Assembly: GCA_016795155.1 (NCBI GenBank)
Contig: JAEUIE010000002.1
Coordinates: forward strand, 62,001-126,000
Direction of reading: 5' to 3'
Length of the DNA stretch: 64,000 nt
From: Planctomycetia bacterium
Lineage (GTDB): Bacteria; Planctomycetota; Planctomycetia; Gemmatales; HRBIN36
Numbering within the stretch: the first letter of the stretch is position 1; each line of letters begins with the position of its first letter. The notes beneath the pieces were generated by a model. The model was not told where the DNA came from. It worked only from the letters and a program-made list of their open reading frames with translations, and did not search any database. Position numbers and translations under genes: made by a program. Shown here piece by piece: positions 314 through 18,029 of this stretch.

Positions 314-2503
314 ATGCGACTGACTTTACGAGGATTACTGGCTTATCTGGATGACCGCCTGGCACATAGCACAGCTTCACAGATCAGCGAACATGTTCAG
401 GAAAACGACAAAGTACGCCAATTAACCGATCGCATCAAGCGGGTGGTTCGTCGTCGCAGGTTAAGTACGCCTGATGTTGCTGAGAGGCAGGATTTGCCAC
501 CACATCATCAGGATGACCCCAACGAAGTAGCAGCGTTCCTCGATGGACAAATGAGTCAGGAGCAGGAAGCAGATTTTGAACAGATTTGCATTGATACCGA
601 TGTCTATCTGGCGGAAGTGGCTGCCTGTCATCAGATCATGACCTTAGGGATGCAGGCAGTCAAAGTGCCTCCTTTGGCCCGACAGCGCATGTATGGATTA
701 GTGGAAGGCCCCGAAGCTCAGCCATTACGAATCGTGCCTCGGGAATCACGACCTTCCAAACCACCACTTTGGGAGGTTAAGGAGACATTGCCACCTCGTG
801 AAGACGAAGAGAACCAGGCCATCCTGGAACCCCTGTACCATGGTCTGGTAGATTCACGCTGGAAGCAGGGGCTTTTCGTAACAGGCGCACTAATGCTGAT
901 GCTGTTGTTCACTGTGGTTGTCTGGAGCATCCCCTGGAACCGCTTAACCCACGAAAATGCAATTGTGGTACGAGAACCAGAAAATCTGGAAATACCAGCT
1001 CCAGATGTTGAGAATAAGCCAGAAGTCATCAAAGAGAACAAACAGAATCTGCCTGCTGCAATGCCAGTCATCAAAAATGTAAACGTATGGCCTGTTCCAG
1101 TCATCAGCATTGAAGGGCAGCCGAACTGGCAAACCACCGTTGATACCTGGTCGCTTTTGGCAGGCATGGTGGCATCTCGTCCCGGTATCCCCATGAATTG
1201 GATGATGAGTCTTGGACAGGAAAGTCAACCCAACGAGCCAGTAGTTACACTTCCTGCAATAGCGAACGCTCAGCCGCGTATTGCTGTTCCTGAACGCACA
1301 GCACATATTCCACTTGGTGTCAATGGTGCAGAATCGCTAGGCATGTTTCTGCAACAACGATCGGACGGTGGATACAGTCTCGTCAAGCCGCAGGCATCTG
1401 TCATCTCTAATGAAATGCTGATTGCGTTGCCTGGCTACACTGCAAACATTGCGTTAAGTAACGGCTTGAAAATCATATTGATGGGGCAGTTTTCGACAAA
1501 CCTGGCAAGTCATCCGGTTGCTGAATCCAGGATTTTCCTGCACCCCACCATGGATGCAGTAGCAGATATCACACTGATCAGAGGCTGTGTGATTGTGCAA
1601 GGACGCAATCATGATCTGGGTAATTCATTGATCTATCTTCGGTATTCCGGCCTCACGTGGGAAATTACCATTCCATCAGGGGGGGAGCTGGGAATACAGG
1701 CTGGCGGACGAGTGATTGCTGGCGAAGGACCATGGAAGTTGGAGGACTTGCTCGATCTTACCGTAACGAAGGGGAACATTGTTGTTAAGCAAGACCAGCA
1801 GCAGTTTACGTTGAAGCCAAAGCAAAAGCTGCATTGGGATTCAAGAATGCAGGAAGGCAAAAGTGGAGCTGTCAGTGAGTTGGCTGAGTTGCCAGCCTGG
1901 CTGTCGAAATATCAAACCGCACCGCGTGAAGCGGTTGACAGCCTGGTTTCACTACGAAGCCGCGTTCATGCCAGGTTGCAGCAGGATGGCAATGATCACA
2001 AATGGTTTGCTCTGGCATGTGATGAAGCCATCGAAGAAGGTAAACTCATCGATCGGCAAGCTGGTTTGTTGGGTATGTCTGCTGTGAACCGAATTGCTCC
2101 ACTGGTTAAGCTTCAAAACGATCCGCTTGCCAACGGAAGACGCAAGTACAGTCATGACGTTGTTCAACTGTGGTTAAATCAAGACCCTGCACATGCAACT
2201 CAACTCAAGGAGATTCTGAAAGCACAAGGTTATCGTGATGAAGATGCCTTGTTACTCCTGGCACTTTACCGAGGAATCGAACAGGCAACACCAAAATCAA
2301 TACACACTGTTCTGGAAGCCATGGCACATCCTTCAGTAGCAATTCGCGAACAAGCTCATCGTGTGTTGTCGGTTTATGTACCTGAAAGGCCAAACATCTT
2401 CGATCCTGTTGGTCCCGAAGATCAGCGAAATAAAGCTATTCAGATCATCAGAAGCAGGTTGCCTGCACAACTAAAAGGTGGGAATGAAACACTTCCACCA
2501 TAA
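314..2503 (+). CDS. planctomycete-type anti-sigma-like membrane protein with FecR-like outer domain
   Basis: This is a protein of about 729 residues. I chose the ATG at 314 (MRLTLRGLLAYLDDRL) because it has AGAGG five bases upstream and because the 'LTLR.LLAYLDD.L' opening recurs in a Gemmataceae family I recognise; an upstream GTG at 275 adds 13 unconvincing residues. The cytoplasmic N-terminal part (about 1-180) has an Arg-rich stretch and a helical segment ending in EVAACHQIM, resembling anti-sigma or zf-HC2-like folds but without a convincing zinc site. One membrane segment lies at about 184-207. The outer part holds a beta-rich, FecR-like stretch around 420-510 and a helical C-terminus. 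It probably senses or holds something at the envelope; no specific function can be given. A terminator follows it. Confidence 0.7.
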   Translation: MRLTLRGLLAYLDDRLAHSTASQISEHVQENDKVRQLTDRIKRVVRRRRLSTPDVAERQDLPPHHQDDPNEVAAFLDGQMSQEQEADFEQICIDTDVYLAEVAACHQIMTLGMQAVKVPPLARQRMYGLVEGPEAQPLRIVPRESRPSKPPLWEVKETLPPREDEENQAILEPLYHGLVDSRWKQGLFVTGALMLMLLFTVVVWSIPWNRLTHENAIVVREPENLEIPAPDVENKPEVIKENKQNLPAAMPVIKNVNVWPVPVISIEGQPNWQTTVDTWSLLAGMVASRPGIPMNWMMSLGQESQPNEPVVTLPAIANAQPRIAVPERTAHIPLGVNGAESLGMFLQQRSDGGYSLVKPQASVISNEMLIALPGYTANIALSNGLKIILMGQFSTNLASHPVAESRIFLHPTMDAVADITLIRGCVIVQGRNHDLGNSLIYLRYSGLTWEITIPSGGELGIQAGGRVIAGEGPWKLEDLLDLTVTKGNIVVKQDQQQFTLKPKQKLHWDSRMQEGKSGAVSELAELPAWLSKYQTAPREAVDSLVSLRSRVHARLQQDGNDHKWFALACDEAIEEGKLIDRQAGLLGMSAVNRIAPLVKLQNDPLANGRRKYSHDVVQLWLNQDPAHATQLKEILKAQGYRDEDALLLLALYRGIEQATPKSIHTVLEAMAHPSVAIREQAHRVLSVYVPERPNIFDPVGPEDQRNKAIQIIRSRLPAQLKGGNETLPP

Positions 2504-2525
2504 CAGACAGTGGATTTATAACAAA

Positions 2526-2555
2526 TAAAGCGGAACTCTTTTGAGTTCCGCTTTA
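2526..2555. terminator. bidirectional terminator between convergent genes
   Basis: A perfect 13-base-pair stem (TAAAGCGGAACTC pairing with 2543-2555) closes a TTTT loop, with A/T-rich flanks on both sides. It lies 22 bases after the stop at 2503 and 20 bases beyond the plsX stop on the other strand, so it can serve both transcripts. Confidence 0.85.
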
Positions 2556-2574
2556 TCCATTCCTGATGGATTTA

Positions 2575-3609
2575 TTAATCATCTGATTCATTAGCAGCAG
2601 CAGCAGCAAGTGCCGGGTCAGCTTCCAATTCCTTAACGATGTGCTGATTCAGTCCAGCATCAATTTCCTTGGCTGCAAGTAATAATGCGTTCTTGATAGC
2701 TCTTTCCTTGCTCGAGCCGTGGCAGATAATGCAAATGCCGTCAATTCCTAACAGGGGAGCGCCGCCAACTGCTGCGTAGTCGTACTTTTCAGATAACTGC
2801 TTGAGTGCGCCTAGCCCTTTAAGCTTCTCGACATCTAGTGCAGAATTCAATGCTTGCCCCGTCATCGTTAGTACGAATTCAAAAAGTCCTTCGCATACTT
2901 TCAGAATGACGTTGCCAACGAAGCCATCGCAAACGACTACATCGGTGGCGCCGCGGTGAATGTCCCGGCCTTCGATGTTGCCAACAAAGCGGTCAGAAAG
3001 ATGGCTGGCTTTAAATAATTCGTAGGTTTCTTTGGCCAAGTCATGTCCCTTGGCAGATTCTGATCCTATGTTCATCAAACCGATCGTTGGGTGCTCTTTA
3101 TTGCAGATCTTTCGTGCGTAAATGGAGCCCATTACCCCATACTGAAAGAGATGCGTTGCTTTGGGGGCAGCATTGGCGCCCACATCAATCATGACGCAAG
3201 GGCCTTTCATGGTTGGCATGACGGTAGCGATGCCTGGTCGACGTACATATTTCAAAAACTTTTTCAAACGCAGGCCGGCAGCAACAACGGCGCCTGTATT
3301 ACCAGGCGAAACAATCGCTTCGACCTTGCGTTCCGCCATCAGTTGCCAGGTTCGGAGGATAGAGCAATCAGGTTTCTTGCGAAGCCCCAGTAATGGGTGA
3401 TCTTCCATGGTAAGCACCTGGCTTGCATGGTGAGTGCCTACACGTGAGCTGATTTCTTCAGGCAGGTTCTGGATCAAGGGCTCAATCTGACCACGATCAC
3501 CAACCAGTGTCAGGATGATATTGGGATTGGTTTGAACAGCTTCGAGAGCACCGGCCACAACTGGGGCTGGTCCGTGATCGCCTCCCATCACATCCAGGGC
3601 GATTCGCAT
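2575..3609 (-). CDS. plsX: phosphate acyltransferase PlsX
   Basis: This 344-residue protein starts MRIALDVMGGDHGP, the PlsX signature. PlsX converts acyl-ACP and phosphate to acyl-phosphate, the first committed donor for phosphatidic acid synthesis through PlsY, at the inner face of the membrane. Length and motifs fit the family (about 330-350 residues), including GNTGAVVAAG and DVGANAAPKATHLFQYG. The gene begins 3 bases after the rpmF stop, and its Shine-Dalgarno (GGAGAAG) lies inside the end of rpmF, so the two are very likely translationally coupled. The rpmF-plsX order is widespread in bacteria. The C-terminus ends in an acidic AAAAANESDD tail. Confidence 0.95.
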   Translation of the reverse strand: MRIALDVMGGDHGPAPVVAGALEAVQTNPNIILTLVGDRGQIEPLIQNLPEEISSRVGTHHASQVLTMEDHPLLGLRKKPDCSILRTWQLMAERKVEAIVSPGNTGAVVAAGLRLKKFLKYVRRPGIATVMPTMKGPCVMIDVGANAAPKATHLFQYGVMGSIYARKICNKEHPTIGLMNIGSESAKGHDLAKETYELFKASHLSDRFVGNIEGRDIHRGATDVVVCDGFVGNVILKVCEGLFEFVLTMTGQALNSALDVEKLKGLGALKQLSEKYDYAAVGGAPLLGIDGICIICHGSSKERAIKNALLLAAKEIDAGLNQHIVKELEADPALAAAAANESDD

Positions 3610-3612
3610 GGA

Positions 3613-3825
3613 TTACTTCTCCTCTTTCTCGTTTTCCTTTAACGGATGACGAGATTCTGCTTGCCCTTTCGAAGCATAGAAACCGCATTGGGAACAAACA
3701 CGGTGAGGAAGTACAGGTTCACCGCACTGCGAACAATACTGGTATCGCGGTGCTTTTGCGGTACTGATGTGGCTACGACGCTTACCCTTAGCTGCTTTAG
3801 AGGTGCGTCTTTTGGGTACTGCCAT
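3613..3825 (-). CDS. rpmF: 50S ribosomal protein L32
   Basis: The 70-residue product begins [19 protein letters not shown], the typical L32 opening, and has a Cys4 zinc knuckle (CSQCGEP and CSQCGFY around residues 33-50) expected of a zinc-binding L32. It is a small protein of the large ribosomal subunit near the peptidyl transferase exit region. It is transcribed with plsX directly downstream. The yceD/DUF177 gene that often precedes rpmF in other bacteria is absent here. The C-terminal tail ([18 protein letters not shown]) is a little longer than usual. Confidence 0.95.
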
Positions 3826-4131
3826 GGAACAATTATCCTTCTTTGTCAGTCATCAATAATCAGACAGATAACTGGCTTGGTTGTTAATTTCCTTAGGGAA
3901 AACAAGCGTTGGCCTGTCAATGTTAAGATGCCTGAAGTTGTACAGTTCAGGGCTGATTTTATATGGAAGCAAGGGTACTTGTCTAGCATGTCGACAGAAG
4001 GGAAATGTCAGATACGAGTCGGGTTTCAAAAAGCGTATAATTTTGGAATATTTGGTAAAACAATGTTGTACTTCGTGCGTATGTGATCTATAGTGGTTAC
4101 GTCGTTATACTTTGTTGTATTGAGGTGAAAC
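3826..4131. other. 306-base divergent intergenic region
   Basis: This AT-rich stretch lies between the rpmF start (leftward) and the DUF1559 gene (rightward). It holds the rightward promoter listed separately. I see no convincing gene; short open frames here have no ribosome binding site and atypical composition. Confidence 0.6.
4066..4094 (+). promoter_or_regulatory. candidate sigma70-type promoter for the DUF1559 gene
   Basis: TTGTAC (4066-4071) and TATAGT (4089-4094) are separated by 17 bases. Initiation near 4101 would give a leader of about 30 bases before the ATG at 4132, which is preceded by GAGGTG. Confidence 0.5.
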
Positions 4132-5265
4132 ATGAAGGTACATCGCTTATCCAAACGACATGGCTTTACTCTGATTGAATTGCTGGTGGTTATCGCCATT
4201 ATTGCCTTATTGATGGCGTTGTTGCTTCCTGCTATTCAGAAAGTCAGGGAAGCAGCAAACAAGATGCTCTGTGCCAGTAATTTAAGGCAAATCGGAATAG
4301 CTGCACACAATTATCATGGAGACTATCAGAAACTACCGCCAGGTTATTACGGTCCACTACTGAATAATGGAACCACCAATGTTTCGCCCGATGTCGCACC
4401 GGAGCGTGGCCCCTGGATTGGTTGCCTAGTTGTTCTGCTGCCTTACATGGAGCAGGATAATCTCTATAAGCAGTTGTGGGCCACACAACAGAATTTCCCG
4501 ATGGTTGGCCCAGTTCCATCCGGTCCACCCCTGCAACTCGGTTTACAGCAAGAGCATTTCGGATGGTGGACTGCACTGGGAAATATTCAGCCTGCAACGG
4601 GGCAAGTGAAATTGAAGATACTGAAATGTCCATCAGATACGGTCGACGAAGCAACTGTAGAAGGGGCTCTTCTGACAACTCATGTAGCAAATGGTTTTGT
4701 GATGGGATTACATCCTGAGGATGTAGGAAGCGAAGCATATGCAGATGCACTTGGACGAACCAGTTACACAGGAGTTGCAGGTGCAGCAGGAAATGGTGAA
4801 ATCAACAACTTCTATAGCCGGTGGGAAGGTATCATGTGCAATCGCTCGCAATTGACCCTTGGGCAACTCGCGGTACAGGATGGCACCAGCAATACGCTCA
4901 TGTTTGGTGAAGGCCTTGGTGGCAATGGAGTTGGCACTCGCATCCACGTATGGTCATGGATGGGAGTAGGCAGCATGTCAACGGGTTATGGCTTAGGCAA
5001 AGCCAATATCCCTTGCGATGATGATGATCCACCTGCACTCGGGGATACACCGCCAGCAGGACAGGACGGTGCGCATTGGTTCAGATTCAGCAGCCGTCAC
5101 GCTGCCGGTGTTCAATTCTGTTTTGGTGATGGTTCAGTCCGCCTGGTAAGGTATGGAAACACAACACAGCCATCGATATCTATTACCAGCGATTGGGCGC
5201 TTCTCCAACAACTGGCAGGCCGACGTGATGGGTACCAGAACGATACATCAGCCATCCTGGAGTGA
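4132..5265 (+). CDS. DUF1559 prepilin-like protein
   Basis: The 377-residue protein has a type IV prepilin-like N-terminus: a short basic leader, then [26 protein letters not shown] (residues 11-36). Cleavage is expected after the Gly of HGFTLIE, followed by the hydrophobic helix. '[25 protein letters not shown]' and the C-terminal '[15 protein letters not shown]' are hallmarks of the DUF1559 family, which is greatly expanded in planctomycetes, with tens of paralogues per genome. The family is thought to form or decorate pseudopilus-like or surface structures, but its role is unproven. A small lipoprotein gene follows 62 bases later, a common arrangement for these genes. Confidence 0.93.
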
Positions 5266-5327
5266 TTTGGCTGAGCTGAATTAAAGGAAGGAACAATTTC
5301 ACTTCCAAGCTGAATTAGGACGTAATT

Positions 5328-5489
5328 ATGTATCGTAATGTATTACTGCTGGTGTTCCTGGTTCTCGTGTTGTCGGGATGTAACCCAGGGGCACCAGTAA
5401 CAGAGGGAAAGATGTCGATTGCTTCCACCAAGGTATTCAGCAAAAATAAGGCTTCTAAATCACCAGCACCTGTTATTCCGAAAAATTAA
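5328..5489 (+). CDS. small lipoprotein (53 residues) following the DUF1559 gene
   Basis: The frame begins ATG at 5328, with AGGA about 8 bases upstream, and ends TAA at 5487-5489. It encodes a short basic start, a hydrophobic stretch LLLVFLVLVL and the lipobox LSGC with Cys at residue 18, followed by a Ser/Pro/Lys-rich mature peptide of about 35 residues ending PVIPKN. These are the elements of a type II signal peptide and lipid anchoring. Small lipoproteins of this kind often follow DUF1559 genes in planctomycetes, so a partnership with the upstream protein is plausible but inferred. No enzymatic domain is present. Confidence 0.75.
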   Translation: MYRNVLLLVFLVLVLSGCNPGAPVTEGKMSIASTKVFSKNKASKSPAPVIPKN

Positions 5490-5587
5490 ATTATTTCCTC
5501 ACATTTTCTTCATGCCCAATCAACTCCGGACCTTGTGTTTCGTGATATGATGCATATACGGTTAAAACTATCTAAACTTCGTAACAA

Positions 5588-6676
5588 ATGATGTCTTTGC
5601 AAGCGATTGCAGCTGGTGTCATGCCCGACCTGGCAGAATTCCTGAATGATCTTGAGCATACCCGGCTATTGTCAGCCGAGGAGATGAACCATTATCGAAA
5701 TACAACAAAGATAGACCCACCGGTTACACCGCAGGAGTTGGCACTGGAACTGGTCCGTCATGGCAAACTCAGCAAGTACCAGGCAGATACTCTTTTAAAA
5801 GGGCGATGCAAAGGCCTGGTCATGGGTAACATGGAATTGCTGGCACCTTTAGGGAAAGGTGGCATGGCTCATGTTTTTCTTGCTAACGACCGGCAAACGC
5901 AGGAATTGCTCGCAATAAAATTATTACCGCCAAACAAGGCTCAAAAGGCCCCACATCTGGTGGATCGATTTCATCGCGAAGCACTCATCGGCAAGCGCCT
6001 GAATCATCCGGGCATCACTAAAGTGCAGTTTCTGCGATATATCAGAGGAGTGCTATGTCTGGCACTCGAATATGTTCCTGGCATGGATATTTACCGTCAG
6101 GTCCAGCAGTTTGGCGTGATGCCGATCGGAACCGCGGTTAGATTGATTGCAGATTTGGCAGTTGCACTCAGTCATGCACATCGACAGGGAATTGTTCATG
6201 CCGATATTAAACCTGCAAATGTAATAATGTTGCCCCGTGAAGTAAGGCATCTGCATCAGGGAACAAGATGTAAGGTTCTGGATTTTGGATTAGCAATCGA
6301 CTTAGCGCGACCTCCTGAACGTGCCAGCCTCAGCGGAAAAGGTAACATCGCTGGAACTATTTCTTACATGGCGCCTGAGCAAACATATCCTGATAAATTG
6401 CCTCTTCCGGCCTCTGATCTTTATGCACTAGGGTGTACGTTGTTTTATACTCTCACAGGCAAGCCACCGTTTAACATTGACAGCAAAATGTCAGCCAGAG
6501 AAAAGATTGCTCATCAACGCCATTCTCCCCCACCTGAGATTTTGGACTTTGTTCCGACTGTGCCGATGGAACTCGCTCAACTTCTTAGTCAGTTGTTGGC
6601 AAAAGACCCAGCTCGTAGACCTTCATCTGCACAACTGGTTGCAGAGAAACTACGTGAAATTGGAAAAGGTCGATGA
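5588..6676 (+). CDS. Ser/Thr protein kinase with planctomycete-type N-terminal extension
   Basis: This 362-residue cytoplasmic kinase has an 80-residue N-terminal helical module (LELVRHGKLSKYQADTLLKG) seen on many planctomycete kinases, then the kinase fold. The glycine loop is GKGGMAHVF (89-97), the ATP-binding lysine is K111 in LAIKLL, and the catalytic loop is HADIKPAN with D206 and N211. The metal motif is DFG at 232-234 and the APE-like MAPEQ is near 261-265. The usual HRD arginine is alanine, so this is a non-RD kinase that may not need activation-loop phosphorylation. There is no membrane segment or sensor tail. It lies just upstream of a degenerate receiver gene, a murB-like gene and an ftsQ-like gene on the same strand. 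Confidence 0.9.
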   Translation: MMSLQAIAAGVMPDLAEFLNDLEHTRLLSAEEMNHYRNTTKIDPPVTPQELALELVRHGKLSKYQADTLLKGRCKGLVMGNMELLAPLGKGGMAHVFLANDRQTQELLAIKLLPPNKAQKAPHLVDRFHREALIGKRLNHPGITKVQFLRYIRGVLCLALEYVPGMDIYRQVQQFGVMPIGTAVRLIADLAVALSHAHRQGIVHADIKPANVIMLPREVRHLHQGTRCKVLDFGLAIDLARPPERASLSGKGNIAGTISYMAPEQTYPDKLPLPASDLYALGCTLFYTLTGKPPFNIDSKMSAREKIAHQRHSPPPEILDFVPTVPMELAQLLSQLLAKDPARRPSSAQLVAEKLREIGKGR

Positions 6677-6754
6677 ACACTAGATAACGCTGTGTTGATC
6701 AGATCGTAATATGTAATTAAATGAAACTGAGGCGAATCGAATTCGGGGATCATA

Positions 6755-7120
6755 ATGTCTCAACGTGTGCTGTCAGTGGGAAATTGTGCATATGATCAAA
6801 GCAACCTGCAACGTGTGTTGAAACAGCACTTTCGTGTTGAAATTGATTCGGCTGATGATGCGGTAAGTGCTAGAAAAATGATTAACGAAAATGATTATAA
6901 GATTGTGCTCATAAACAGGGTATTTGACTCCAATAATGAATCTGGTGTTGAGTTCATTAAGCAGTTGAAGAAAAATGAATCAAAAATCCCTGTTATGTTG
7001 GTTAGCAATTTTGATGAGTATCAGCAGCAAGCAATGGCTGCAGGAGCAGTGCAGGGGTTTGGTAAGTCAAGTATTGGTCAACCGGAGTTTGTTGAATTGA
7101 TGATGCAGTATCTGAACTGA
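6755..7120 (+). CDS. receiver-like (pseudo-receiver) protein lacking the phospho-acceptor
   Basis: The 121-residue protein has the alternating beta/alpha pattern and size of a stand-alone CheY-type receiver: RVLSVGN, KIVLINRVFD, IPVMLVSNFD, and AAGAVQGFGKSS with the conserved lysine K104. The phosphorylatable Asp at the end of strand 3 is replaced by Asn (N54), and the acidic pair after strand 1 is missing (VGNCAYD). It should therefore not be phosphorylated in the normal way. It could act as a constitutive or protein-binding switch. It lies 78 bases after the kinase and 64 bases before the murB-like gene; a Ser/Thr kinase substrate role is possible but speculative. Confidence 0.75.
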   Translation: MSQRVLSVGNCAYDQSNLQRVLKQHFRVEIDSADDAVSARKMINENDYKIVLINRVFDSNNESGVEFIKQLKKNESKIPVMLVSNFDEYQQQAMAAGAVQGFGKSSIGQPEFVELMMQYLN

Positions 7121-7184
7121 TTGAAGTATTGCCTCCAGTGTTCTTCGCAGTAGGCTGAAAGAGTAGTCACTGATAAGGATTTCT

Positions 7185-8072
7185 ATGTCCTCGCTGTCCT
7201 TTTTAGACAAATGGCCAGGAAGCGTGCAGAAGCAGGCTCCGCTTGCACCTTTAACTTCACTACGCATGGGTGGGCCAGCTTCAGCATTGGTCACTCCAGA
7301 CAGCATCGAAGTACTTTATGAGATGCTCACACAGGCAGCTAGGAATCAGGTGGGTGTCAGATTCCTGGGTAGTGGAACAAATATTCTCGTTCAGGATACA
7401 GGGTTTCAAGGCCTAGTCATTCAATTTACTGCTCCCTGCTTTCAGACAATTGAAGTCGAGGATAACAAAGTATCTGCCAAAACAGGCGTCACCCTTGGAC
7501 ACTTGCTTTCGACTGCTGCGAGGAGGCAACTCGGCGGTCTGGAAAGCCTGGTAGGTTTCCCTGGTACTGTCGGTGGGGCGCTCAAGAATGATCTGAAAGT
7601 GAAAACAGGCCCACTCAGTCAATATGTCAGTCGCGTTCAATTACTAGATTCGCATGGTAAAGTAGCCTGGCATGCCCGAGATGAAATTCCCATCGATCAG
7701 TTACTTTCTACTCCTGATGGCGCAATTATCCTAGGGGCGGAATTTACACTGCATCACGACCAGAAGGAATCCATCATTAAACGAATTCGCAAGCACTGGA
7801 TACATACCACAACGAATCAGCCCTTACGGCATGAAAGATTCGCCAGATTGTTTCGTGATCCACCTGGCGGAACAGCTAATCAGTTAATCGTCAAGGCAAG
7901 CGTTCAATTAAGCAAAGTTGGCAGTGCTTCACTTAGTGAACGTGATGCCAACTATGTTGTGGTGACAGGCGACGCCAAAGTAAACGATGTGCTTCAATTG
8001 ATGGAACTGGTTCAAACCCATGTTGAAGAAAGACTCGGCGAAACACTTCAACCAAGTCTGGTTATCTGGTAA
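7185..8072 (+). CDS. MurB homologue with catalytic residues replaced
   Basis: The 295-residue protein has the overall MurB layout (UDP-N-acetylenolpyruvoylglucosamine reductase, an FAD enzyme of peptidoglycan precursor synthesis). Visible are PLTSLRMGGPA, the FAD-binding GSGTNILVQDTGFQG and GFPGTVGGAL, then FRDPPG and SERDANYVV near the end. Key residues differ. After GGAL the usual M-N-A-G is absent (KNDLKVKTG). The Tyr-Arg pair before the mid strand is missing (IDQLLSTPDG). The catalytic Ser/Cys just before 'F-K-N-P' is Arg (ARLFRDP). The C-terminal Glu is Ser (LQPSLVIW). It may still bind FAD or UDP-sugar but is unlikely to be a normal reductase. A canonical murB may exist elsewhere. It is followed by an ftsQ-like gene, as in dcw clusters. 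Confidence 0.8.
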   Translation: MSSLSFLDKWPGSVQKQAPLAPLTSLRMGGPASALVTPDSIEVLYEMLTQAARNQVGVRFLGSGTNILVQDTGFQGLVIQFTAPCFQTIEVEDNKVSAKTGVTLGHLLSTAARRQLGGLESLVGFPGTVGGALKNDLKVKTGPLSQYVSRVQLLDSHGKVAWHARDEIPIDQLLSTPDGAIILGAEFTLHHDQKESIIKRIRKHWIHTTTNQPLRHERFARLFRDPPGGTANQLIVKASVQLSKVGSASLSERDANYVVVTGDAKVNDVLQLMELVQTHVEERLGETLQPSLVIW

Positions 8073-8124
8073 ACGTTAGGAAATAAACTGTAATTGAACT
8101 TATTCTGGTTAACGGGATTTCTGG

Positions 8125-8940
8125 ATGGCTCGTCTGGCAACTCCACCTCCTGATAGTTCACTAGAGGAATGGAGCAGACGCCTGGCGTGCCTGGTGTGTA
8201 TAGTGATTCCGATATTACTGCTTGGGTTGCTGTTACACCAAAAGCCTCTCGAATCCCAATTCCGATTGCGCTGGGACGATCTTAGGTTGTCAGCTGTTCC
8301 CCCGATGCCTGTAAAAGACTTCCTGAATGAGGTACGGGCCGCTGGTCAATTTCAGGAAGAACTGAACCTCCATGAAACTGAACTGCTTGAGCGTCTCCGG
8401 GAAACCATTCAACGACATGAATGGGTTGAATCAGTTCAAAGGGTAGCACTGGTATCACCAAGGCAATTGCAAGTTGATCTGACATTCAGAAAACCGGTGG
8501 CCAAGATTGAAAATGGATCACAAGTTCACTGGGTTGATCAACATGGAAAGTTGTTGTTGCCGGTTGCTCAAAAATGGAAATGGAATCTGATTTCAATTGT
8601 CGGATGGAACGATCGTCAGGAAGAATCAAGTCAATGGCTGGTGCAAGCGGCCAAAACAGCACAGCAGCTAGAAAATGATGTATCTCAGTGGAATCTTAGC
8701 AGTATTCAAATAGCGAATTATCCAGCTCTGGACGTTTCAGAACTTCGACTGAAGACTAAGGGTGGTACCAGTATCATTTGGCAAACGTTGAAAGGATCGA
8801 ATGTAGAAGAGCCAACTTTTGAGGAGAAGAAGAGTCGAATCAGGATTTATCTTGAACGGTATGGAACACTGGACGTTCCTGCAGGCTACGTGCTCGATGT
8901 GCGAGTGAAGGAAGGATTGCAGCGAAAGCCCGTGCAGTAA
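8125..8940 (+). CDS. FtsQ/DivIB-like division protein
   Basis: The 271-residue protein has a cytoplasmic N-terminus of about 20 residues and one membrane helix (LACLVCIVIPILLLGLLLH, about 20-38). A POTRA-like segment (ETELLERLRETIQRHEWVESVQRVALVSPRQLQVDLTFRKPVAKI, about 90-135) and a beta-rich C-terminal part follow, the FtsQ/DivIB domain order. FtsQ bridges divisome sub-complexes at the septum. Identity is low, so the call rests on topology, the POTRA-like motif and its place directly after a murB homologue (murB-ddl-ftsQ is a common dcw order). Planctomycetes lack FtsZ, so a role in conventional Z-ring division is doubtful. The gene ends 7 bases from the convergent next gene. Confidence 0.65.
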   Translation: MARLATPPPDSSLEEWSRRLACLVCIVIPILLLGLLLHQKPLESQFRLRWDDLRLSAVPPMPVKDFLNEVRAAGQFQEELNLHETELLERLRETIQRHEWVESVQRVALVSPRQLQVDLTFRKPVAKIENGSQVHWVDQHGKLLLPVAQKWKWNLISIVGWNDRQEESSQWLVQAAKTAQQLENDVSQWNLSSIQIANYPALDVSELRLKTKGGTSIIWQTLKGSNVEEPTFEEKKSRIRIYLERYGTLDVPAGYVLDVRVKEGLQRKPVQ

Positions 8941-8947
8941 TGAACTT

Positions 8948-10786
8948 CTATGGCTTATATCCTGTGTACACCATCTTTCCAAATTGCAGAGTTTCCCCAG
9001 GAACACTCAGCAGCAACGGAGATCGAAAACGAGCTTGCTGTTCCACGATCCAACTTGAGAGTTGATACTTCTGCCCAGGCCAGAACGGGCCTGCTCGGAA
9101 ACGACCTTGTGCATCGGTGGATTGTAACCAAAACCGAAGACCTCGGCTTGCATACGATTCAGGCACATCTCGCAACGGGACATCCAGTTCCAAGGACAAG
9201 CGGGGCAGCGGCTTGCCCAGTGTGTCTATCAGTTGTCCTTCGAGATAAACTGCCGCCTTCGGATCAACTTGCAGCACCACTTCAACGAGCGGCTTGTCGA
9301 GATTGACCTTTACCAGTTCCGGACTAACCCCCTGGTTGCTACGGACATAAATTTCCAACAATTCCGGCCGCAGGTTGTTGAGTTGAAACCGGCCATCATG
9401 ATCTGTCATCGGCGTGTTGGCCAGGCTGTGATAGTAGTTCTGTGTAGTATGAATCCACGCTCCCACTACGGGCTTGCCCTGCTTATCGAGAACCCGACCT
9501 CGCAACGTTGCCGAGGGAATCAACTCGATATCCGGCCACACTATTTCCCCCTGTGTAACTTCAACTGGCCGCTGACGGTCATTTCGTAAGAACTCGTTGC
9601 CTACTAACCATGTCTTTGGTGGGGCATAATACATTGTGCAATTGATCAATCCCGGACGAACATAGCGGGTAAACGTGCCATCAGCCTGCGTCACAGTTGG
9701 TAGTGGTATTACCGCAAGTGCTGAATAAAGTTGAGTAGAAGAAACCCCGACCGTAACTCCATTGATCCCTTGCTTTGTTTTCTGGTCAACAACTCTTCCT
9801 GTAACCTTGATCGCTCGCACCATCGGGATGTTCAATTTCGTCGTTTCGCCTGACTTAATGCTGAACTGAGGACTGTGAACCGATGAATAGACAAATGGCA
9901 CATTACTCTGGTAGTCTGCTTGAATCCAGCCGTGACCGGGATGTAATCCGTCAATCGAAAGTTCAACAGTGCCACGATTTTTTTCTCGACGATAGCAACT
10001 CAAACCGAACTCGCGAGCACTATCATCATTCGAACTCATGGCTCCCCACACACTGTCACGAAGCGCCGTGGGATCATCTACCCCAGTAAATTTGACATGT
10101 AACTTCCCAGGTTGAGCAATAACGATTTCCTTCTCGCGCTCAACATCAAAGCGTGTTCTCACTTCATACCCCGTTCGCAAATTGACTTTAAGATGCAGCA
10201 AACCGGGATGCGGAATACCTGGCAATACGAAGTTGCCATCGTCGCCAGTTGTGACCTGGAACTGCTGCTGTAGCGGAGGTGGTAGTTCGACATGCTGCTC
10301 GATCGAAGTGAAGACCGCTTGCCCCAGTTCGGTGCGCTTGCGTACACCGCCTAACACTCTTACCGGCTGAACGATAGCACCTGCCCACGGCTTGCCCGTT
10401 TGATCGACTAGTCTCCCACGATACTCCTTGCCTGCCGGCAACTCACAAGTCAGATGAAGTGGATCATCCACAACAGCAAACTTTTTGATTTCGCTCATCC
10501 GTCCGTCAACTGCCCGCACCAGAATACCTGCCAGGCTCTTGTCTTTGCAGTATGGCAATCGGAACTGGCCACGGTCATCTGTCTTCACCTGCGCCAAGAT
10601 GGCGTTACCAGTATCCATTCCAGGCCGTTCCGATGAGCCCTCAATCAACCACACCGTCGCTCCTGGAACGGGCTTCCCTTCTGCAATCACCACCCCGGCA
10701 AAGGCGATGATCTCCTCAGCATGCAGACTGACCGCAGGAAAGAATCCGATGATGATGAAAAGCTGAATGTGCCGGTAGCAAAGCAT
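8948..10786 (-). CDS. exported protein with carboxypeptidase-regulatory-like repeats
   Basis: The 612-residue protein starts with an export signal (HIQLFIIIGFFPAVSLHAEE; cleavage likely after HA near residue 23). It is then built of repeated Ig-like beta-sandwich units of the carboxypeptidase regulatory-like type. The recurring pattern is 'G.V.D..GKPV.GA.V', a strand, then 'TD..G.F.L', for example around residues 30-75, 105-200, 330-385 and 425-480. No peptidase active site is present. Such proteins are abundant in planctomycetes and are probably structural or carbohydrate-binding in the periplasm or on the surface. A short ribbon-helix-helix gene lies upstream on the same strand but with its own spacing, so a shared operon is uncertain. 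Confidence 0.8.
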   Translation of the reverse strand: MLCYRHIQLFIIIGFFPAVSLHAEEIIAFAGVVIAEGKPVPGATVWLIEGSSERPGMDTGNAILAQVKTDDRGQFRLPYCKDKSLAGILVRAVDGRMSEIKKFAVVDDPLHLTCELPAGKEYRGRLVDQTGKPWAGAIVQPVRVLGGVRKRTELGQAVFTSIEQHVELPPPLQQQFQVTTGDDGNFVLPGIPHPGLLHLKVNLRTGYEVRTRFDVEREKEIVIAQPGKLHVKFTGVDDPTALRDSVWGAMSSNDDSAREFGLSCYRREKNRGTVELSIDGLHPGHGWIQADYQSNVPFVYSSVHSPQFSIKSGETTKLNIPMVRAIKVTGRVVDQKTKQGINGVTVGVSSTQLYSALAVIPLPTVTQADGTFTRYVRPGLINCTMYYAPPKTWLVGNEFLRNDRQRPVEVTQGEIVWPDIELIPSATLRGRVLDKQGKPVVGAWIHTTQNYYHSLANTPMTDHDGRFQLNNLRPELLEIYVRSNQGVSPELVKVNLDKPLVEVVLQVDPKAAVYLEGQLIDTLGKPLPRLSLELDVPLRDVPESYASRGLRFWLQSTDAQGRFRAGPFWPGQKYQLSSWIVEQQARFRSPLLLSVPGETLQFGKMVYTGYKP

Positions 10787-10808
10787 GATAGTCTCCCGAT
10801 GTCGCCCA

Positions 10809-11021
10809 TTATCCTACCACATCCTCCTTAGGCTCCACACCCACATCTCCCTGACTCTGTGATTCAACCACTTCTTGAATCTTGATCCCCTGCTTCACCA
10901 CCGCCTGTCGCAGCAGATACTCAATCTGCCCGTTCAAGCTGCGGAGGTCCTGCTCTGCCCACCGCTGCAACGCCGCCAGCAATGCAGGATCCAACCGCAG
11001 TAAGAACGACTTTCGAGTCAT
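10809..11021 (-). CDS. small Arc-like ribbon-helix-helix protein
   Basis: The 70-residue product begins MTRKSFLLRLDPALLAALQRWAEQDLRSLNGQIEYLLRQAV, matching the Arc/CopG-type ribbon-helix-helix plan: one beta strand (SFLLRLD), helix, turn, and second helix with the 'S.NGQIE.LLR.AV' signature. An acidic, probably disordered tail follows. Such proteins bind DNA as dimers, or more loosely act as adaptors. It starts 43 bases after the SPFH gene and is probably co-transcribed with it. RHH partners of SPFH genes recur in several phyla, so a joint function is likely but unproven. Confidence 0.75.
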   Translation of the reverse strand: MTRKSFLLRLDPALLAALQRWAEQDLRSLNGQIEYLLRQAVVKQGIKIQEVVESQSQGDVGVEPKEDVVG

Positions 11022-11064
11022 CTCGTTTACTCCATGAACAAGCTTGCTGAGTAGTTCGCATCTT

Positions 11065-12000
11065 TTATGAGTAAAGAGTTCCAGTGTTCACAACGGGCTG
11101 TACGCTCTGGTGCCCACATAACACCACCAGAAGATTGCTGACCATGGAGGCACGCCGCTCAGGGTCAAGTTCGACAACTTTCCGTTGATTCAACTCATCC
11201 AGTGCATGTTCCACCATGCCAACTGCTGCATCAACGATCAGCTTCCTTGCAGCAATCGTGGCTGAAGCCTGCTGACGCTGAAGCATAGCTGCAGCAATCT
11301 CAGGTGCGTATGCAAGGTAACTGATTCGAGCTTCCTGAATGATGACACCTGCCTGCTGCATCCGTTCCTGCAGTTCGTGTTTCAGTTTTTCTGCAACATC
11401 CTCGATATGTCCGCGAAGGGATGATACATCATCTTCCGGTGCATCATAGCGATAATGACTCGCCAGGTTTCGGAGTGCTGCATCAGCCTGCGTATGTACA
11501 TACCCTTCGTAATCATCAACCTGGAAAACTGCCTGTGCTGCATCAATTACTTTCCAGACGACCACTGCAGCAATTTCAATGGGAGTGCCATCCTTGTCGT
11601 TCACTTTCAGGGGTCGACGTGATTGGGAAGCCTGTTTCACTACTTTGCCTGCTGCATCTTTCACTTCATCAGATTCAGTGACTCCCGTTTCAAAAGTTCT
11701 AATCCGCAAGCTGACTCTGGTTCGCCAGTAGAACGGATTGCCGTAGTAGAAGCCAACGTCCTTGATGGTGCCCAAGTACTCTCCAAAGAGTTGAACGACA
11801 CAGGCCTGATTCGGATTAACAACAACGAAACCAAATAAGCAGATGAACCAGAAGATGGATGGTATGACCACCAGCCAGGCCAGTTCAGGAATAGGTGTAA
11901 ATCCCAGAAGTACACCGATCAGAATAATTGCCAGTAATCCACCCAAGAGGGCGATCAATGCTGACCATCCGGAAGCTAATCTAAATGCTCGATCGTTCAT
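11065..12000 (-). CDS. SPFH/Band 7 membrane protein
   Basis: The 311-residue protein has two adjacent N-terminal membrane segments (about 12-34 and 40-60). A stomatin/prohibitin/flotillin domain (residues about 60-230: NPNQACVVQLFGEYLGTIKDVGFYYGNPF, later QARISYLAYAPEIAAAM-like) follows, then a helical C-terminus. SPFH proteins oligomerise into ring or cage assemblies on membranes and organise proteases or lipid microdomains. The ATG at 12000 has AAGGAG eight bases upstream, and a good promoter lies about 30 bases further out. The downstream RHH gene is the only evident operon partner. Confidence 0.9.
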   Translation of the reverse strand: MNDRAFRLASGWSALIALLGGLLAIILIGVLLGFTPIPELAWLVVIPSIFWFICLFGFVVVNPNQACVVQLFGEYLGTIKDVGFYYGNPFYWRTRVSLRIRTFETGVTESDEVKDAAGKVVKQASQSRRPLKVNDKDGTPIEIAAVVVWKVIDAAQAVFQVDDYEGYVHTQADAALRNLASHYRYDAPEDDVSSLRGHIEDVAEKLKHELQERMQQAGVIIQEARISYLAYAPEIAAAMLQRQQASATIAARKLIVDAAVGMVEHALDELNQRKVVELDPERRASMVSNLLVVLCGHQSVQPVVNTGTLYS

Positions 12001-12029
12001 GTTAAACTCCTTGATTTCAAAGTGATATC

Positions 12030-12058
12030 ATTTTACTATCAATATGATTTCAATTCAA
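12030..12058 (-). promoter_or_regulatory. sigma70-type promoter for the SPFH gene
   Basis: Read on the minus strand, TTGAAT (12058-12053) and TAAAAT (12035-12030) are separated by exactly 17 bases. The start codon at 12000 follows after a short leader that contains AAGGAG. Confidence 0.6.
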
Positions 12059-12280
12059 GGAGTGCTGGCCTTGTTTGCGGATTGTTTTTAGAATCAATGC
12101 TGTAAATACAAGTGATTAAAGGAGATGTGGCAACCAATTTCAAATGAACAATAATTGATCCTGTTGCAAATTGACCGGATCACATCACCATGATAACTTG
12201 TTTTGGAATCATTGCTGGCTAAGAAGAAGCATTAATCTCTGATCAATGAAGACCAGAATTACGAACGAAAAGGATTATCC

Positions 12281-14053
12281 ATGCGCGTATCACATCTGTT
12301 TGGCGAAACACTCCGTGAAGCACCAGCTGATGTGGATATCGTCAGTCATCAGTTGCTTTTACGTGCCGGTTACGTTCGGCAATTGGCTGCAGGAATTTTC
12401 TCCTATTTGCCTTTGGCTCATCGCAGTATGAGAAAAATTGAGCAGATACTTCGTGAAGAAATGAATGCCATCGGCGGTCAGGAGATGACCATGCCCGTGG
12501 TGCACCCTGCAGAGCCTTGGCAGCAGACAGGTCGTTGGCAGGTAATTGATGAGTCGTTGGCACGTTTCAAAGATCGCAAGGATCGCGATATGGTCCTCGG
12601 AATGACCCACGAAGAAATTGTGGGTGTGCTCTGTGCTAGTGAAGTCAAATCCTGGCGACAGCTTCCCATGCTCGTTTACCAGATTCAGACCAAGTTTCGT
12701 GATGAAGCACGTCCTCGTGGCGGGCTTATTCGTGTCCGCGAATTCACCATGAAGGATTCCTATTCAATCGATAAAGATGAAGCTGGACTGAAGAAACAGT
12801 ATGCGGAACACTACCATGCCTATTTCCGCATGTATGCAAGAGCAGGCTTACCTGTGATTGCTGTTGGATCAGACACGGGCATGATGGGTGGCAAAGTCGC
12901 TCATGAATTCATGTATGTCACCCCTATAGGCGAAGACACTTTAGTTATTGACGAAGCAGGTTATGCTGCCAATCAGGAAGTGGCACAATTCGTCAAGACA
13001 CCACATGATGGTGGTTCTCCAGCCAGTATGGAGAAGGTGCTTACCCCAAACTGCCCAACGATAGAAGATTTAGCCAAATTCCTGAAGGTTGATGCAAAAC
13101 AAACGATGAAGATGGTCTTTTTTGTTGGCACTTTCCAGGAGGGGGACCGAAAAGTTGAAAAGCTGGTAGCTGCTGCCGTCCGGGGTGATATGGAAGTCAA
13201 TCAGACGCAGGTGACTAATAAAGTCAAGGCACTTTCAACCCGTCCGGCACATCCAGAAGAAATACAGGCTGTTGGTATGGTTCCTGGATATGCTTCGCCG
13301 ATCGGGATTGCGAAAGGAAAAGCAGTAGTTGTTCTTGACGATCTTCTCGAAAAGAGCACGAATCTGGTCAGTGGCGCCAACGAAGCAGGGTTTCATTACA
13401 AAAATGTCAATGTAGGTAGAGACTTTACTCATGATGTTGTCGGTAACATTGCACTGGCTCAGGATGGGTTCCTAAGTGTTGAAAGTGGCAAGCCACTCAA
13501 ACTTGTGCGTGGGGTAGAAGTAGGTAATATCTTCCAACTGGGAGTGCGTTACAGCATTCCACTGAACTGCAATTTTTCCGATGAATCAGGCAAGCTGCAG
13601 CCCATCGTCATGGGCAGTTATGGCATTGGGGTAGGTCGTTTGCTGGCTTGCGTAGCAGAAGAACATCGTGATCAGTATGGCTTGGCGCTGCCCATCAGTG
13701 TAGCACCGTTTGAAGTGAATCTGGTACTGCTTGCCAAGAAGGAAGAGACCAGGAAGCAAGCTGAGCAACTCTATGCAGATCTGCAGGCAGCAGGTATCGA
13801 AGTGTTGTTTGATGATCGTGATGCTGCAGCAGGCGTGAAATTCACCGACGCTGATTTGCGAGGAATTCCCTTGCGTGTCACCATTTCAGACAAGTCGCTG
13901 GAAAAAGGCGGCGTGGAACTCAAGCATCGCAAGGCAGGAAAGGACTTTACGCTGGTGCCCTTGGCTGAGATCATTTCGGCATTGAAGGCGGAAATTTCCA
14001 AATTACATGCAGCATTGAAAGCAGAGGCGGATAAGTCGCCAAAGTGGAAGTAA
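12281..14053 (+). CDS. proS: prolyl-tRNA synthetase (bacterial type with insertion domain)
   Basis: The 590-residue enzyme charges tRNA-Pro with proline. It is a class II synthetase: motif 2 region TKFRDEARPRGGLIRVREF (about 134-152), motif 3 GSYGIGVGRL (about 446-455), and C-terminal anticodon-binding domain from about 480. Between motifs 2 and 3, residues about 220-400 form the YbaK-like editing insertion that removes alanine, which marks the bacterial ProS type. Start is ATG 12281 with AAGGAT upstream. The C-terminus carries an extra Lys/Ala-rich helix (ISALKAEISKLHAALKAEADK) that is not part of the core enzyme. A 280-base AT-rich stretch before the gene shows nothing beyond leader sequence. 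Confidence 0.95.
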   Translation: MRVSHLFGETLREAPADVDIVSHQLLLRAGYVRQLAAGIFSYLPLAHRSMRKIEQILREEMNAIGGQEMTMPVVHPAEPWQQTGRWQVIDESLARFKDRKDRDMVLGMTHEEIVGVLCASEVKSWRQLPMLVYQIQTKFRDEARPRGGLIRVREFTMKDSYSIDKDEAGLKKQYAEHYHAYFRMYARAGLPVIAVGSDTGMMGGKVAHEFMYVTPIGEDTLVIDEAGYAANQEVAQFVKTPHDGGSPASMEKVLTPNCPTIEDLAKFLKVDAKQTMKMVFFVGTFQEGDRKVEKLVAAAVRGDMEVNQTQVTNKVKALSTRPAHPEEIQAVGMVPGYASPIGIAKGKAVVVLDDLLEKSTNLVSGANEAGFHYKNVNVGRDFTHDVVGNIALAQDGFLSVESGKPLKLVRGVEVGNIFQLGVRYSIPLNCNFSDESGKLQPIVMGSYGIGVGRLLACVAEEHRDQYGLALPISVAPFEVNLVLLAKKEETRKQAEQLYADLQAAGIEVLFDDRDAAAGVKFTDADLRGIPLRVTISDKSLEKGGVELKHRKAGKDFTLVPLAEIISALKAEISKLHAALKAEADKSPKWK

Positions 14054-14146
14054 GATCACGCTCTTTGCCAAACTTCGTTGGGAGACACGCTGCATTTGAA
14101 GTTCTCTCCTTGTGCACCACCCATTGCATGGGTTACAATTGACCAG

Positions 14147-14812
14147 ATGTCAACGCTTTTTGCTGCCAGTTTTGATGATGCTGAAATTCGTATCCCTCGC
14201 GGGATCACGGACAACGCTTCATTCTTGCGCTGGGCCACTTCCAAGGATGCTCCCGAAAAGGGAAAGTATGCATATCTCGGCGATCATCTCTGGATAGATG
14301 CTTCCATGGAAACCTTGTTTCACAATACGATCAAGTCCGAAATAGCTTTCATCCTTGGCCCCTGGGTGAAACAAATGGGGTTGGGGGATTACTTCACCGA
14401 TGGCATGTTGATGAGTCGTCCCGATCTCGAATTCTCCAGTCAACCTGATGGCATCTTTGTTTCAAAACTTAATTGGAAGACAGGCCGGGTTAAGTTACAA
14501 CAGAACGACAACAGTCTGGTGCTTCTGGGTAGTCCTGATATGGTGCTGGAAGTAATCAGCAAATCCAGTACGCTGAAAGATCAGAAAATAAAAAAACATT
14601 TTTATCACTTGGCAGGTATCAAGGAATACTGGTTGGTCGATAGTCGATTGGCTTCGCCCACTCTGCTTATTTATCGTCATACCTTGAAGGGCTACGTGCA
14701 GGTTAAACCAGTAAAAGCTTGGGTAAAATCGGTAGTCTTCGGCACTTCTTTCCGACTTCTTATCGAACAGGAAACGAGAGACCGTCGAAGTGTTAAACTC
14801 CAGCATTCCTGA
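14147..14812 (+). CDS. Uma2 family (DUF820) PD-(D/E)XK nuclease-like protein
   Basis: From the ATG at 14147 the product is about 221 residues; an in-frame TTG at 14078 would add 23 residues without a good binding site. The core shows the Uma2 pattern: KYAYLGDHLWIDAS, then 'SQPDGIFVS' with the catalytic Asp, 'GSPDMVLEVISKSS' with the Glu-Val-x-Ser motif, and 'KEYWLVD'. Uma2 proteins have a restriction-endonuclease-like fold and are greatly expanded in cyanobacteria and planctomycetes. Their cellular role is unknown. Nothing in the neighbourhood suggests a restriction-modification partner. A second member is at 42735-43313. Confidence 0.85.
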   Translation: MSTLFAASFDDAEIRIPRGITDNASFLRWATSKDAPEKGKYAYLGDHLWIDASMETLFHNTIKSEIAFILGPWVKQMGLGDYFTDGMLMSRPDLEFSSQPDGIFVSKLNWKTGRVKLQQNDNSLVLLGSPDMVLEVISKSSTLKDQKIKKHFYHLAGIKEYWLVDSRLASPTLLIYRHTLKGYVQVKPVKAWVKSVVFGTSFRLLIEQETRDRRSVKLQHS

Positions 14813-14924
14813 AAATACTTAATTGGAAATTGAAATTACCTCAGTGTGGTGCGGCAACACAACACAATCTAGGCAAGCCAACGAAACCCCTATCGACTGG
14901 GTAATCCACGGGTTACAACTCGTG

Positions 14925-14952
14925 TTGACACAATCCGCAACATGGTTACAAT
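14925..14952 (+). promoter_or_regulatory. strong sigma70-type promoter upstream of the structured leader
   Basis: A perfect TTGACA (14925-14930) and TACAAT (14947-14952) are 16 bases apart. Transcription should begin near 14959, about 275 bases before the ATG of the HTH-receiver gene, giving a long leader. A small hairpin (CACGGG, 6-base loop, CTCGTG at 14907-14924) lies just before the -35 box. Confidence 0.7.
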
Positions 14953-14958
14953 CGCCGC

Positions 14959-15234
14959 CGGTGGTAAGGACGGTAAAGCCGACAGGATGAAGAATCCTGA
15001 GCTATGTTTCCTTACTGGGATCGACTTCACGCCACGACACCGACCTCTCGGGGTCACGACAGCCCGGCTGTCAACTGGCATCAAGGTAGATGCCGGTGCT
15101 TTAACTCTGGCACTTGCAGCACTGCAAGGGCCGTGTTCACGGACGAGGCTGGTGCACTTGCCGTAACAGGCAATGGCGCCAGGTGTTGAAGCGAGTCCTA
15201 CCAGACTCTTGCGTTTGGAAAAGGGTGGTGTGTT
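14959..15234 (+). ncRNA. candidate structured leader RNA (array of hairpins)
   Basis: No believable gene fills 14813-15234. Downstream of the promoter I can draw consecutive local stems: 14983-14999 (6 bp), 15042-15055 (4 bp, or the alternative 15040-15051), 15058-15072 (6 bp, GACAGC/GCTGTC), 15075-15096 (8 bp with two wobbles or edge pairs), 15113-15128 (7 bp, CTTGCAG/CTGCAAG), 15131-15142 (5 bp), 15158-15173 (5 bp) and 15193-15208 (5 bp, GAGTC/GACTC). I do not recognise it as RNase P RNA, tmRNA, SRP RNA, 6S RNA or any riboswitch known to me. It could be a cis-regulatory leader of the two-component genes or an independent small RNA; the structure is drawn by eye and not energy-tested. Confidence 0.45.
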
Positions 15235-15819
15235 ATGAAGACTGTGTTCACGACTGGCGAAGCTGCGAAAATCTGCAAGGTAAGCCAGCAGACTATCATT
15301 CGCTGCTTTGATAATGGCCAACTCAAGGGATTTCGCGTCCCAGGTTCCCGATTTCGCCGAATCCCCCGTGATGCCCTATATCGCTTCATGCGAGACAACG
15401 GCATTCCGACTGATGCCTTGGAATCAGGCAAGCGGAAAGTGCTTCTGGTCGATGATGATCCCGATTTGGTCGAGATGATTCAGAAAGTGCTCGAAGACGA
15501 TGGACGCTTCGAAGTTCGCACGGCCAACAATGGTTTTGATGCAGGCATGATGGTCAAGGAATACCGTCCAGATCTCATCATTCTGGATGTCATGCTGCCT
15601 GACATCAACGGTAAGGAAGTCTGTCAACGCGTTCGTTCCGATGAATCGCTGGATGATGTCCGCATCATCTGCATCAGCGGCATGATCGAAGAAGACAAGA
15701 TTACCGACCTGAAGGCCAGTGGCGCCAATGACTTCCTGCACAAGCCATTCGAAGTGGAAGAACTCATTGATCGCATGTGTGTGCAGCTCGAAATTGAAGC
15801 ACTGTCAGCATCGGCTTAA
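15235..15819 (+). CDS. HTH (MerR/excisionase-like) plus receiver response regulator
   Basis: The 194-residue protein has an unusual order: a DNA-binding winged-HTH of the excisionase/MerR-like kind first (FTTGEAAKICKVSQQTIIRCFDNGQLKGFRVPGSRFRRIPRDALYRFM, residues 5-52), then a full receiver domain (67-188). The receiver is intact: acidic triad D73-D75, phospho-acceptor D118 in LIILDVMLPD, and lysine K170 in FLHKPF. It should bind DNA under control of phosphorylation, probably by the histidine kinase encoded next. The leader is long and hairpin-rich. The Shine-Dalgarno is weak (GGGTGG), so translation may depend on leader structure. HTH-first response regulators of this kind occur in planctomycetes; their targets are unknown. 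Confidence 0.88.
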   Translation: MKTVFTTGEAAKICKVSQQTIIRCFDNGQLKGFRVPGSRFRRIPRDALYRFMRDNGIPTDALESGKRKVLLVDDDPDLVEMIQKVLEDDGRFEVRTANNGFDAGMMVKEYRPDLIILDVMLPDINGKEVCQRVRSDESLDDVRIICISGMIEEDKITDLKASGANDFLHKPFEVEELIDRMCVQLEIEALSASA

Positions 15820-15853
15820 TGCATGCTGAAATATGGTCTTCGGTTATCAACCA

Positions 15854-15882
15854 ATGGGTTAGCGCGTTGTGCGTTAACCCAT
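15854..15882 (+). terminator. 12-bp hairpin between response regulator and kinase genes
   Basis: ATGGGTTAGCGC (15854-15865) pairs with 15871-15882 around a 5-base loop, with one G-T wobble. No T-run follows, so it may lower read-through or stabilise the upstream mRNA rather than terminate fully. Confidence 0.5.
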
Positions 15883-15934
15883 CCCGTCTACTAGCTTCTG
15901 GCAACCAGCTACTTGATTCTCAAAAAAGGTCCGC

Positions 15935-17506: not shown

Positions 17507-17591
17507 TTATTGATTCCAGAAAAATGAGAATTATTTGCTTGATAAAGGAAGTAATTTGTAGCCTAGTGAATATGAGGCAGATTATTCCGTG

Positions 17592-17924: not shown

Positions 17925-18029
17925 CGTCGAAGTAGCAGATTGATCTTTCCCAAATTGGCATGACATGCTATTTCCTAGGCTGTTTGCAGTGGGATATTCT
18001 CACGCATCAGGCTCGCATGGAGGCGTGTC

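Follow-up and report, generated by a model that had tools for sequence, protein, structure and literature searches.

MurB acts as the UDP-N-acetylmuramic acid (UDP-MurNAc) dehydrogenase, and in its type II forms the proton donor is either a serine (type IIa) or a cysteine (type IIb) (PMC3689657), so that a cysteine at this position is canonical and an arginine is not. Across the Planctomycetia, murB is very conserved although most mur genes have been lost (Rivas-Marin et al. 2023, PMC10632474). Whether Gemmata and its relatives make peptidoglycan is disputed: peptidoglycan sugars, including MurNAc, were reported in Gemmata obscuriglobus (Jeske et al. 2015, PMC4432640), whereas most peptidoglycan genes are unidentifiable in Tuwongella (Seeger et al. 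2021, PMC8567305). The published genome of Kolteria novifilia lists both a murB1 and a murB2 (PMC12288469). Our literature search on MurB pseudoenzymes and planctomycetes, with most subscription papers outside its reach, found no report of the loss of MurB catalytic residues. Here we analyze a 64,000-nucleotide stretch, which we call the window (GenBank assembly GCA_016795155.1, contig JAEUIE010000002.1, positions 62,001 to 126,000, forward strand), from a Planctomycetia bacterium of the order Gemmatales, in which a murB-like gene is followed by an ftsQ-like gene. The MurB-like protein appears to be a pseudoenzyme that is predicted to bind flavin adenine dinucleotide (FAD) and has been retained with FtsQ in a role independent of peptidoglycan, a reading to which we assign a probability of roughly 0.6.

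The MurB-like protein is recognizable in both fold and cofactor site. Its two Pfam domains score above their gathering thresholds, and it also matches NCBIfam PRK13905 (1.8e-59, 201 bits) and TIGR00179 (9e-32, 110.5 bits), although under the curated cut-offs of 259 and 144.5 bits, respectively. The AlphaFold2 model has a predicted local distance difference test score (pLDDT) of 90.5, and its top Foldseek matches are the type II MurBs 4pyt, 3tx1, and 1hsk, with template modeling scores of 0.85 to 0.88. Alongside the GxGxN motif, the second FAD motif, GFPGTVGG, is intact. All three catalytic positions, in contrast, are replaced (Table 1), as an earlier note on this DNA had proposed. In pairwise alignments to solved MurBs from the PDB, Arg221 shares a column with the catalytic serine, and because these alignments and the flanking F-x-D-P motif (here FKNP) fix the register, we can rule out a shifted alignment that would restore the catalytic residues. 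Judged from these residues, the known MurB chemistry would not be possible, and the protein is predicted to be catalytically dead. As a separate observation, the protein ends in a tryptophan, Trp295, that is near-invariant as the last residue in planctomycete MurBs of this type, both intact and dead.

The loss extends well beyond the window. MurB_C matches occur in 93 of 102 Gemmatales genomes, nearly always as a single copy, and in 386 of 398 genomes across the class. Of the 50 distinct MurBs of this locus type read from Gemmatales, none has the canonical Ser/Cys (43 Arg, 3 Lys, 3 Pro, and 1 Gln); named cases lacking it include Zavarzinella formosa (L195), Gemmata sp. IIL30 (L183), and Limnoglobus roseus (L218). 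The question whether every homologue at this locus lacks all of the catalytic residues is answered yes for the proton donor only, since Arg159 is retained in 7 of these 50 proteins and Glu325 in 38. We then aligned 165 distinct MurB sequences from the whole class, with the Escherichia coli reference among them, and found 59 Cys and 5 Ser at the proton-donor position, the remainder being Arg, Lys, Tyr, Met, Gln, Pro, Ile, Leu, Trp, Ala, or Val. On a tree built with the catalytic columns excluded, parsimony requires at least 11 changes to explain catalytic loss, 5 of them forced by supported branches, for a single protein analyzed by a quick method and with several long branches, including that of the window protein. 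Alignment and tree together indicate that the MurB catalytic residue has been lost in several planctomycete lineages.

The main rival to a noncatalytic role is suggested by the residues that replace the canonical ones. MurB could be a neofunctionalized oxidoreductase that still uses FAD and NADPH, with a rebuilt pocket that reduces or binds another nucleotide-sugar or anionic substrate. Besides the retained FAD motifs, this idea draws on a pattern conserved in the core Gemmataceae, in which Arg takes the place of Ser, Glu-His or Asp-His that of Tyr-Arg, and the Glu is kept; among the 59 proteins with Arg or Lys at the Ser position, 48 keep Glu325, 30 have His at position 159, and 35 have an acidic residue at position 158. 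The window copy, however, has neither the Glu nor the His, no biosynthetic neighbor gene is conserved, and other lineages carry Met, Leu, Tyr, Gln, Pro, Ile, Ala, Trp, or Val at the Ser position, which leaves no one new chemistry that would suit the whole class. We therefore regard this explanation as rather unlikely.

The gene content of the window genome offers no detectable pathway around MurB. The genome, which is 97% complete, contains one copy of the MurB_C domain, making the window protein its sole MurB; a search for a second canonical murB returned only a weak match on contig C20, which covers the FAD domain alone inside a 965-residue frame. A single Mur_ligase_M match proved to be FolC (382 bits, cut-off 163), and a single MurA-like match was AroA (412 bits, cut-off 287). 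We detected no shape, elongation, division, and sporulation (SEDS) protein and no penicillin-binding protein (PBP) transpeptidase; MraY, MurG, FtsB, and FtsL were not searched. The same searches were positive in 10 of 14 control genomes, as well as in five planctomycetes belonging to two other families. At this completeness one missing gene could be due to chance, but the absence of four classes very unlikely so.

Elsewhere, pathway and active site largely go together. MurA, SEDS proteins, and PBPs are present in five genomes (G103, G106, G116, G151, and G154) from families whose MurBs, where read, are intact; all but G116, which was not searched for ligases, also have the five Mur ligases, and the MurBs fetched from G106, G116, G151, and G154 retain Ser/Cys, Arg, and Glu. 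Lineages f3, f11, f12, and f16, which lack the pathway, keep the Cys and have lost Glu or Arg. One exception runs in the other direction: the MurB of genome G244 (L107) is intact, with Cys, Tyr-Arg, and Glu, despite the absence of MurA, SEDS proteins, and PBPs, possibly because the pathway was lost recently. In three genomes (G104, G039, and G375) a second, intact MurB lies beside MurA, and the dead copy is thus kept even alongside a working one. The intact gene lies directly by MurA in G039 (L286, contig C14, 6567-8807) and G375 (L138, contig C259), two genomes without SEDS or PBP genes, and looks acquired in both. In G104, murF, ddl, murC, murD, murE, murA, and an intact murB cluster at L285 (C1:6280500-6300000, positions 1571-18427) with an NHLP bacteriocin-type exporter and its HlyD protein. 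This genome also has no SEDS protein or PBP transpeptidase, so that a complete UDP-MurNAc-pentapeptide pathway apparently exists without a wall polymerase and perhaps serves an exported product.

These data bear on whether the window MurB might still work with altered residues, the Gemmatales making peptidoglycan by a divergent route. The MurNAc reported in G. obscuriglobus would agree with such a route, as would the near-universal retention of murB alone among the mur genes. Against it, the proton donor and Tyr-Arg, and here the Glu too, are all gone, our searches found no MurA, MurC-F, SEDS protein, or PBP, genomes with MurA carry a separate intact MurB next to it, and the Tuwongella data point the same way. 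We consider a working enzyme highly improbable.

The neighbor of the dead MurB was identified by structure. The FtsQ-like protein of the window has no Pfam or NCBIfam match of its own, and among 42 homologues, 5 match the FtsQ family PRK05529 (best 6.5e-7) and none has a Pfam match. Its AlphaFold2 model, with a pLDDT of 91.9, shows a short cytoplasmic tail, a single predicted membrane helix (residues 11-37), a POTRA domain, and a beta domain. All nine PDB structures matched by Foldseek at E<1e-3 are FtsQ, among them 8hhf, 5z2w, 6h9o, 2vh2, and 2vh1 (E of 8e-8 to 1.5e-6), which bears out the earlier identification. Many Gemmatales FtsQ proteins (L192, L195, L182, L193, L199, and others) are only ≈130 to 220 residues long; these keep the membrane helix and POTRA domain and have lost the C-terminal beta domain.

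To define the conserved unit, we compared gene neighborhoods. FtsQ adjoins dead MurB in 85 of 99 loci, lying directly 3' in 73, with 12 more where the ORF has an over-extended start. The Gemmatales dead loci have no conserved upstream gene. The largest cluster of upstream genes is MurC, found mostly in intact loci, where it lies directly 5' of murB, and several intact loci have a Ddl-like protein, recognized from sequence, between murB and ftsQ. Family f15 is intermediate, with MurC 5' of a MurB whose Ser position is occupied by Met. What has been conserved is the pair murB-ftsQ, left over from an ancestral murC-murB-(ddl)-ftsQ segment, in keeping with the dcw (division and cell wall) origin suggested previously. 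The two genes also tend to be kept together: the 9 Gemmatales without MurB are also without FtsQ, and 12 with MurB have FtsQ. Family f5 (G104), in which dead MurB and FtsQ are both retained at separate loci, is more telling on this point than the co-loss of adjacent genes.

The window itself presents a larger cluster, with a kinase, a receiver, the MurB-like protein, and the FtsQ-like protein encoded on the same strand with gaps of 78, 64, and 52 bp. The earlier note had read these four genes, whose layout we find as described, as one signalling-plus-wall cluster; in the form of this idea considered here, the kinase and the dead receiver would regulate MurB and FtsQ as one module. Among 106 loci with enough upstream sequence, however, the window is the only one in which the degenerate receiver precedes murB, and 7 have an upstream kinase, whose distance and orientation vary; G005 and G006, two sister genomes, carry the receiver and murB on different contigs. 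The four-gene order is unique to the window genome, and the two-gene order extends across the order. The module is thereby refuted as a conserved unit, and a shared regulatory function for the four genes, to which the short gaps lend some appeal, is scarcely credible; the kinase and receiver are unrelated local neighbors.

Retention could also reflect inertia, with murB as a functionless leftover awaiting deletion. Planctopirus limnophila can do without murB, and deleting its ftsQ alters neither growth nor shape (PMC10632474); both genes are missing from nine Gemmatales genomes, and the window copy is fast-evolving. Yet the frames are full-length throughout the order, and the ratio of nonsynonymous to synonymous substitution rates (dN/dS) in 22 pairs of close dead MurBs is 0.013 to 0.25 (median ≈0.06), much like that of intact pairs. 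In two FAD segments, dead MurBs show nearly the same conservation as intact ones (0.60-0.62 versus 0.63 and 0.79-0.82 versus 0.83), in the helix KRMRKAWI they show more, and conservation of the catalytic loop falls from 0.82 to 0.51-0.67. The dead MurB is under purifying selection in relatives, in agreement with the previous argument against simple decay, and slow decay seems very unlikely.

Repeated catalytic loss combined with strong selection beside ftsQ suggests that MurB probably acquired, or has possessed all along, a second function. We propose that the protein would no longer be a UDP-MurNAc dehydrogenase, since it keeps its fold and FAD motif but neither the proton donor nor the Tyr-Arg pair that anchors the substrate and, in the window copy, not the Glu either. 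It may work with the FtsQ-like membrane protein in envelope growth or the budding-division apparatus of bacteria from which the peptidoglycan pathway would have disappeared. That the protein carries FAD, that it is a physical partner of FtsQ, and that it functions in envelope growth or division are all three things we infer; the pair might plausibly serve as a regulator or scaffold. A more tentative version, possible but on the improbable side, is that a noncatalytic function as an FAD-dependent partner or regulator of FtsQ is ancient and predates the loss of peptidoglycan. The catalytic residues would then have drifted after independent losses of the pathway while this second function kept murB-ftsQ alive, and it may exist in walled bacteria as well. 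Several observations weigh against the pseudoenzyme reading. Beyond the dispensability of both genes in P. limnophila, we found no FtsQ adjoining MurB in 14 of the 99 dead loci, and co-loss can be a single deletion or assembly gap because the genes are adjacent. The cytoplasmic tail of FtsQ is only short, so a large interface with MurB is not obvious. The window MurB is also the most eroded copy, with the longest end branch among dead MurBs, and selection on it is not measurable because the species has no close relative from which to obtain a dN/dS.

Table 1. Positions in the window of the four genes and of the cofactor and active-site features of the MurB-like protein
Feature	Position	Strand	Evidence or remark
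Non-RD Hanks-type Ser/Thr kinase, 362 aa	5588-6676	+	Pfam Pkinase 7.7e-43; local neighbor, outside conserved unit
Degenerate receiver, 121 aa	6755-7120	+	Pfam Response_reg 1.3e-9; local neighbor, outside conserved unit
MurB-like pseudoenzyme (predicted), 295 aa, FAD-binding domain and MurB C-terminal domain	7185-8072	+	PF01565 6.8e-15, PF02873 1.2e-14
FAD motif GxGxN retained, G62-x-G64-x-N66	7368-7382	+	G/G/N in at least ≈95% of R/K-type dead homologues
Q172-L173 replaces Tyr158-Arg159 (E. coli numbering)	7698-7703	+	Alignment to E. coli MurB
Arg221 replaces proton donor Ser229/Cys	7845-7847	+	Alignment to E. coli MurB
Ser291 replaces catalytic Glu325	8055-8057	+	Alignment to E. coli MurB
FtsQ-like protein, 271 aa	8125-8940	+	AlphaFold2 and Foldseek FtsQ matches

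The two upstream genes are as the earlier note described them individually. The kinase has the catalytic loop HADIKPAN in place of HRD, with the VAIK-type Lys and DFG both present. Asn stands at the phospho-accepting Asp position of the receiver (VLINR), which also lacks the acidic pair of beta-1 (SVGNC). Matches to the receiver family occur in 42 of the 102 Gemmatales genomes, the phosphorylation site is Asn in 20 of 20 aligned copies, and the family members (the window copy and L243-L262) share an LVNR motif and a VLSVGQC start; by sequence, this is an old pseudo-receiver family. Among the Gemmatales matches read, linkage to murB was seen nowhere besides the window genome, and none of 19 receiver loci read in relatives has a neighboring kinase. 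A promoter and terminator scan of 5300-9100 gave counts not above those of shuffled sequence. Further upstream, 4132-5265 encodes a prepilin-type protein, recognized by its N terminus, that probably belongs to a family of such proteins that is very large in planctomycetes.

A pseudoenzyme would offer an answer to the puzzle of a murB that is conserved yet nonessential where most mur genes are lost (PMC10632474), and it implies that a murB annotation in Planctomycetia is no evidence of peptidoglycan. The finding bears on the dispute over Gemmata peptidoglycan and makes it testable. Parallel loss of an active site with the fold maintained is also a natural experiment for a noncatalytic role of MurB, possibly one tied to FtsQ.

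Compared with known systems, the window MurB shares its whole fold with the type II enzymes of Staphylococcus aureus (1HSK) and Listeria monocytogenes (3TX1) and with LucY (4PYT), including the lack of the Tyr190 loop and the FAD motifs GxGxN and GTVGG. It differs in having Arg for Ser/Cys, Gln-Leu for Tyr-Arg, and Ser for Glu, and in that the surrounding pathway is missing. The FtsQ-like protein resembles FtsQ/DivIB, the only PDB family it matches at that threshold, in its single membrane helix and its POTRA and beta domains, but its sequence falls under the family thresholds, its host order has no SEDS protein or PBP, and many Gemmatales copies lack the C-terminal beta domain. The murB-ftsQ order is that of the dcw segment murC-murB-ddl-ftsQ, from which murC and ddl are gone at the window locus, leaving murB-ftsQ alone. 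The E. coli MurB Ser229Ala mutant (PDB 1UXY), itself among the Foldseek matches, has likewise lost the donor and preserved the fold; it is a laboratory mutant, whereas the loss in Gemmatales is natural, order-wide, and joined by other losses.

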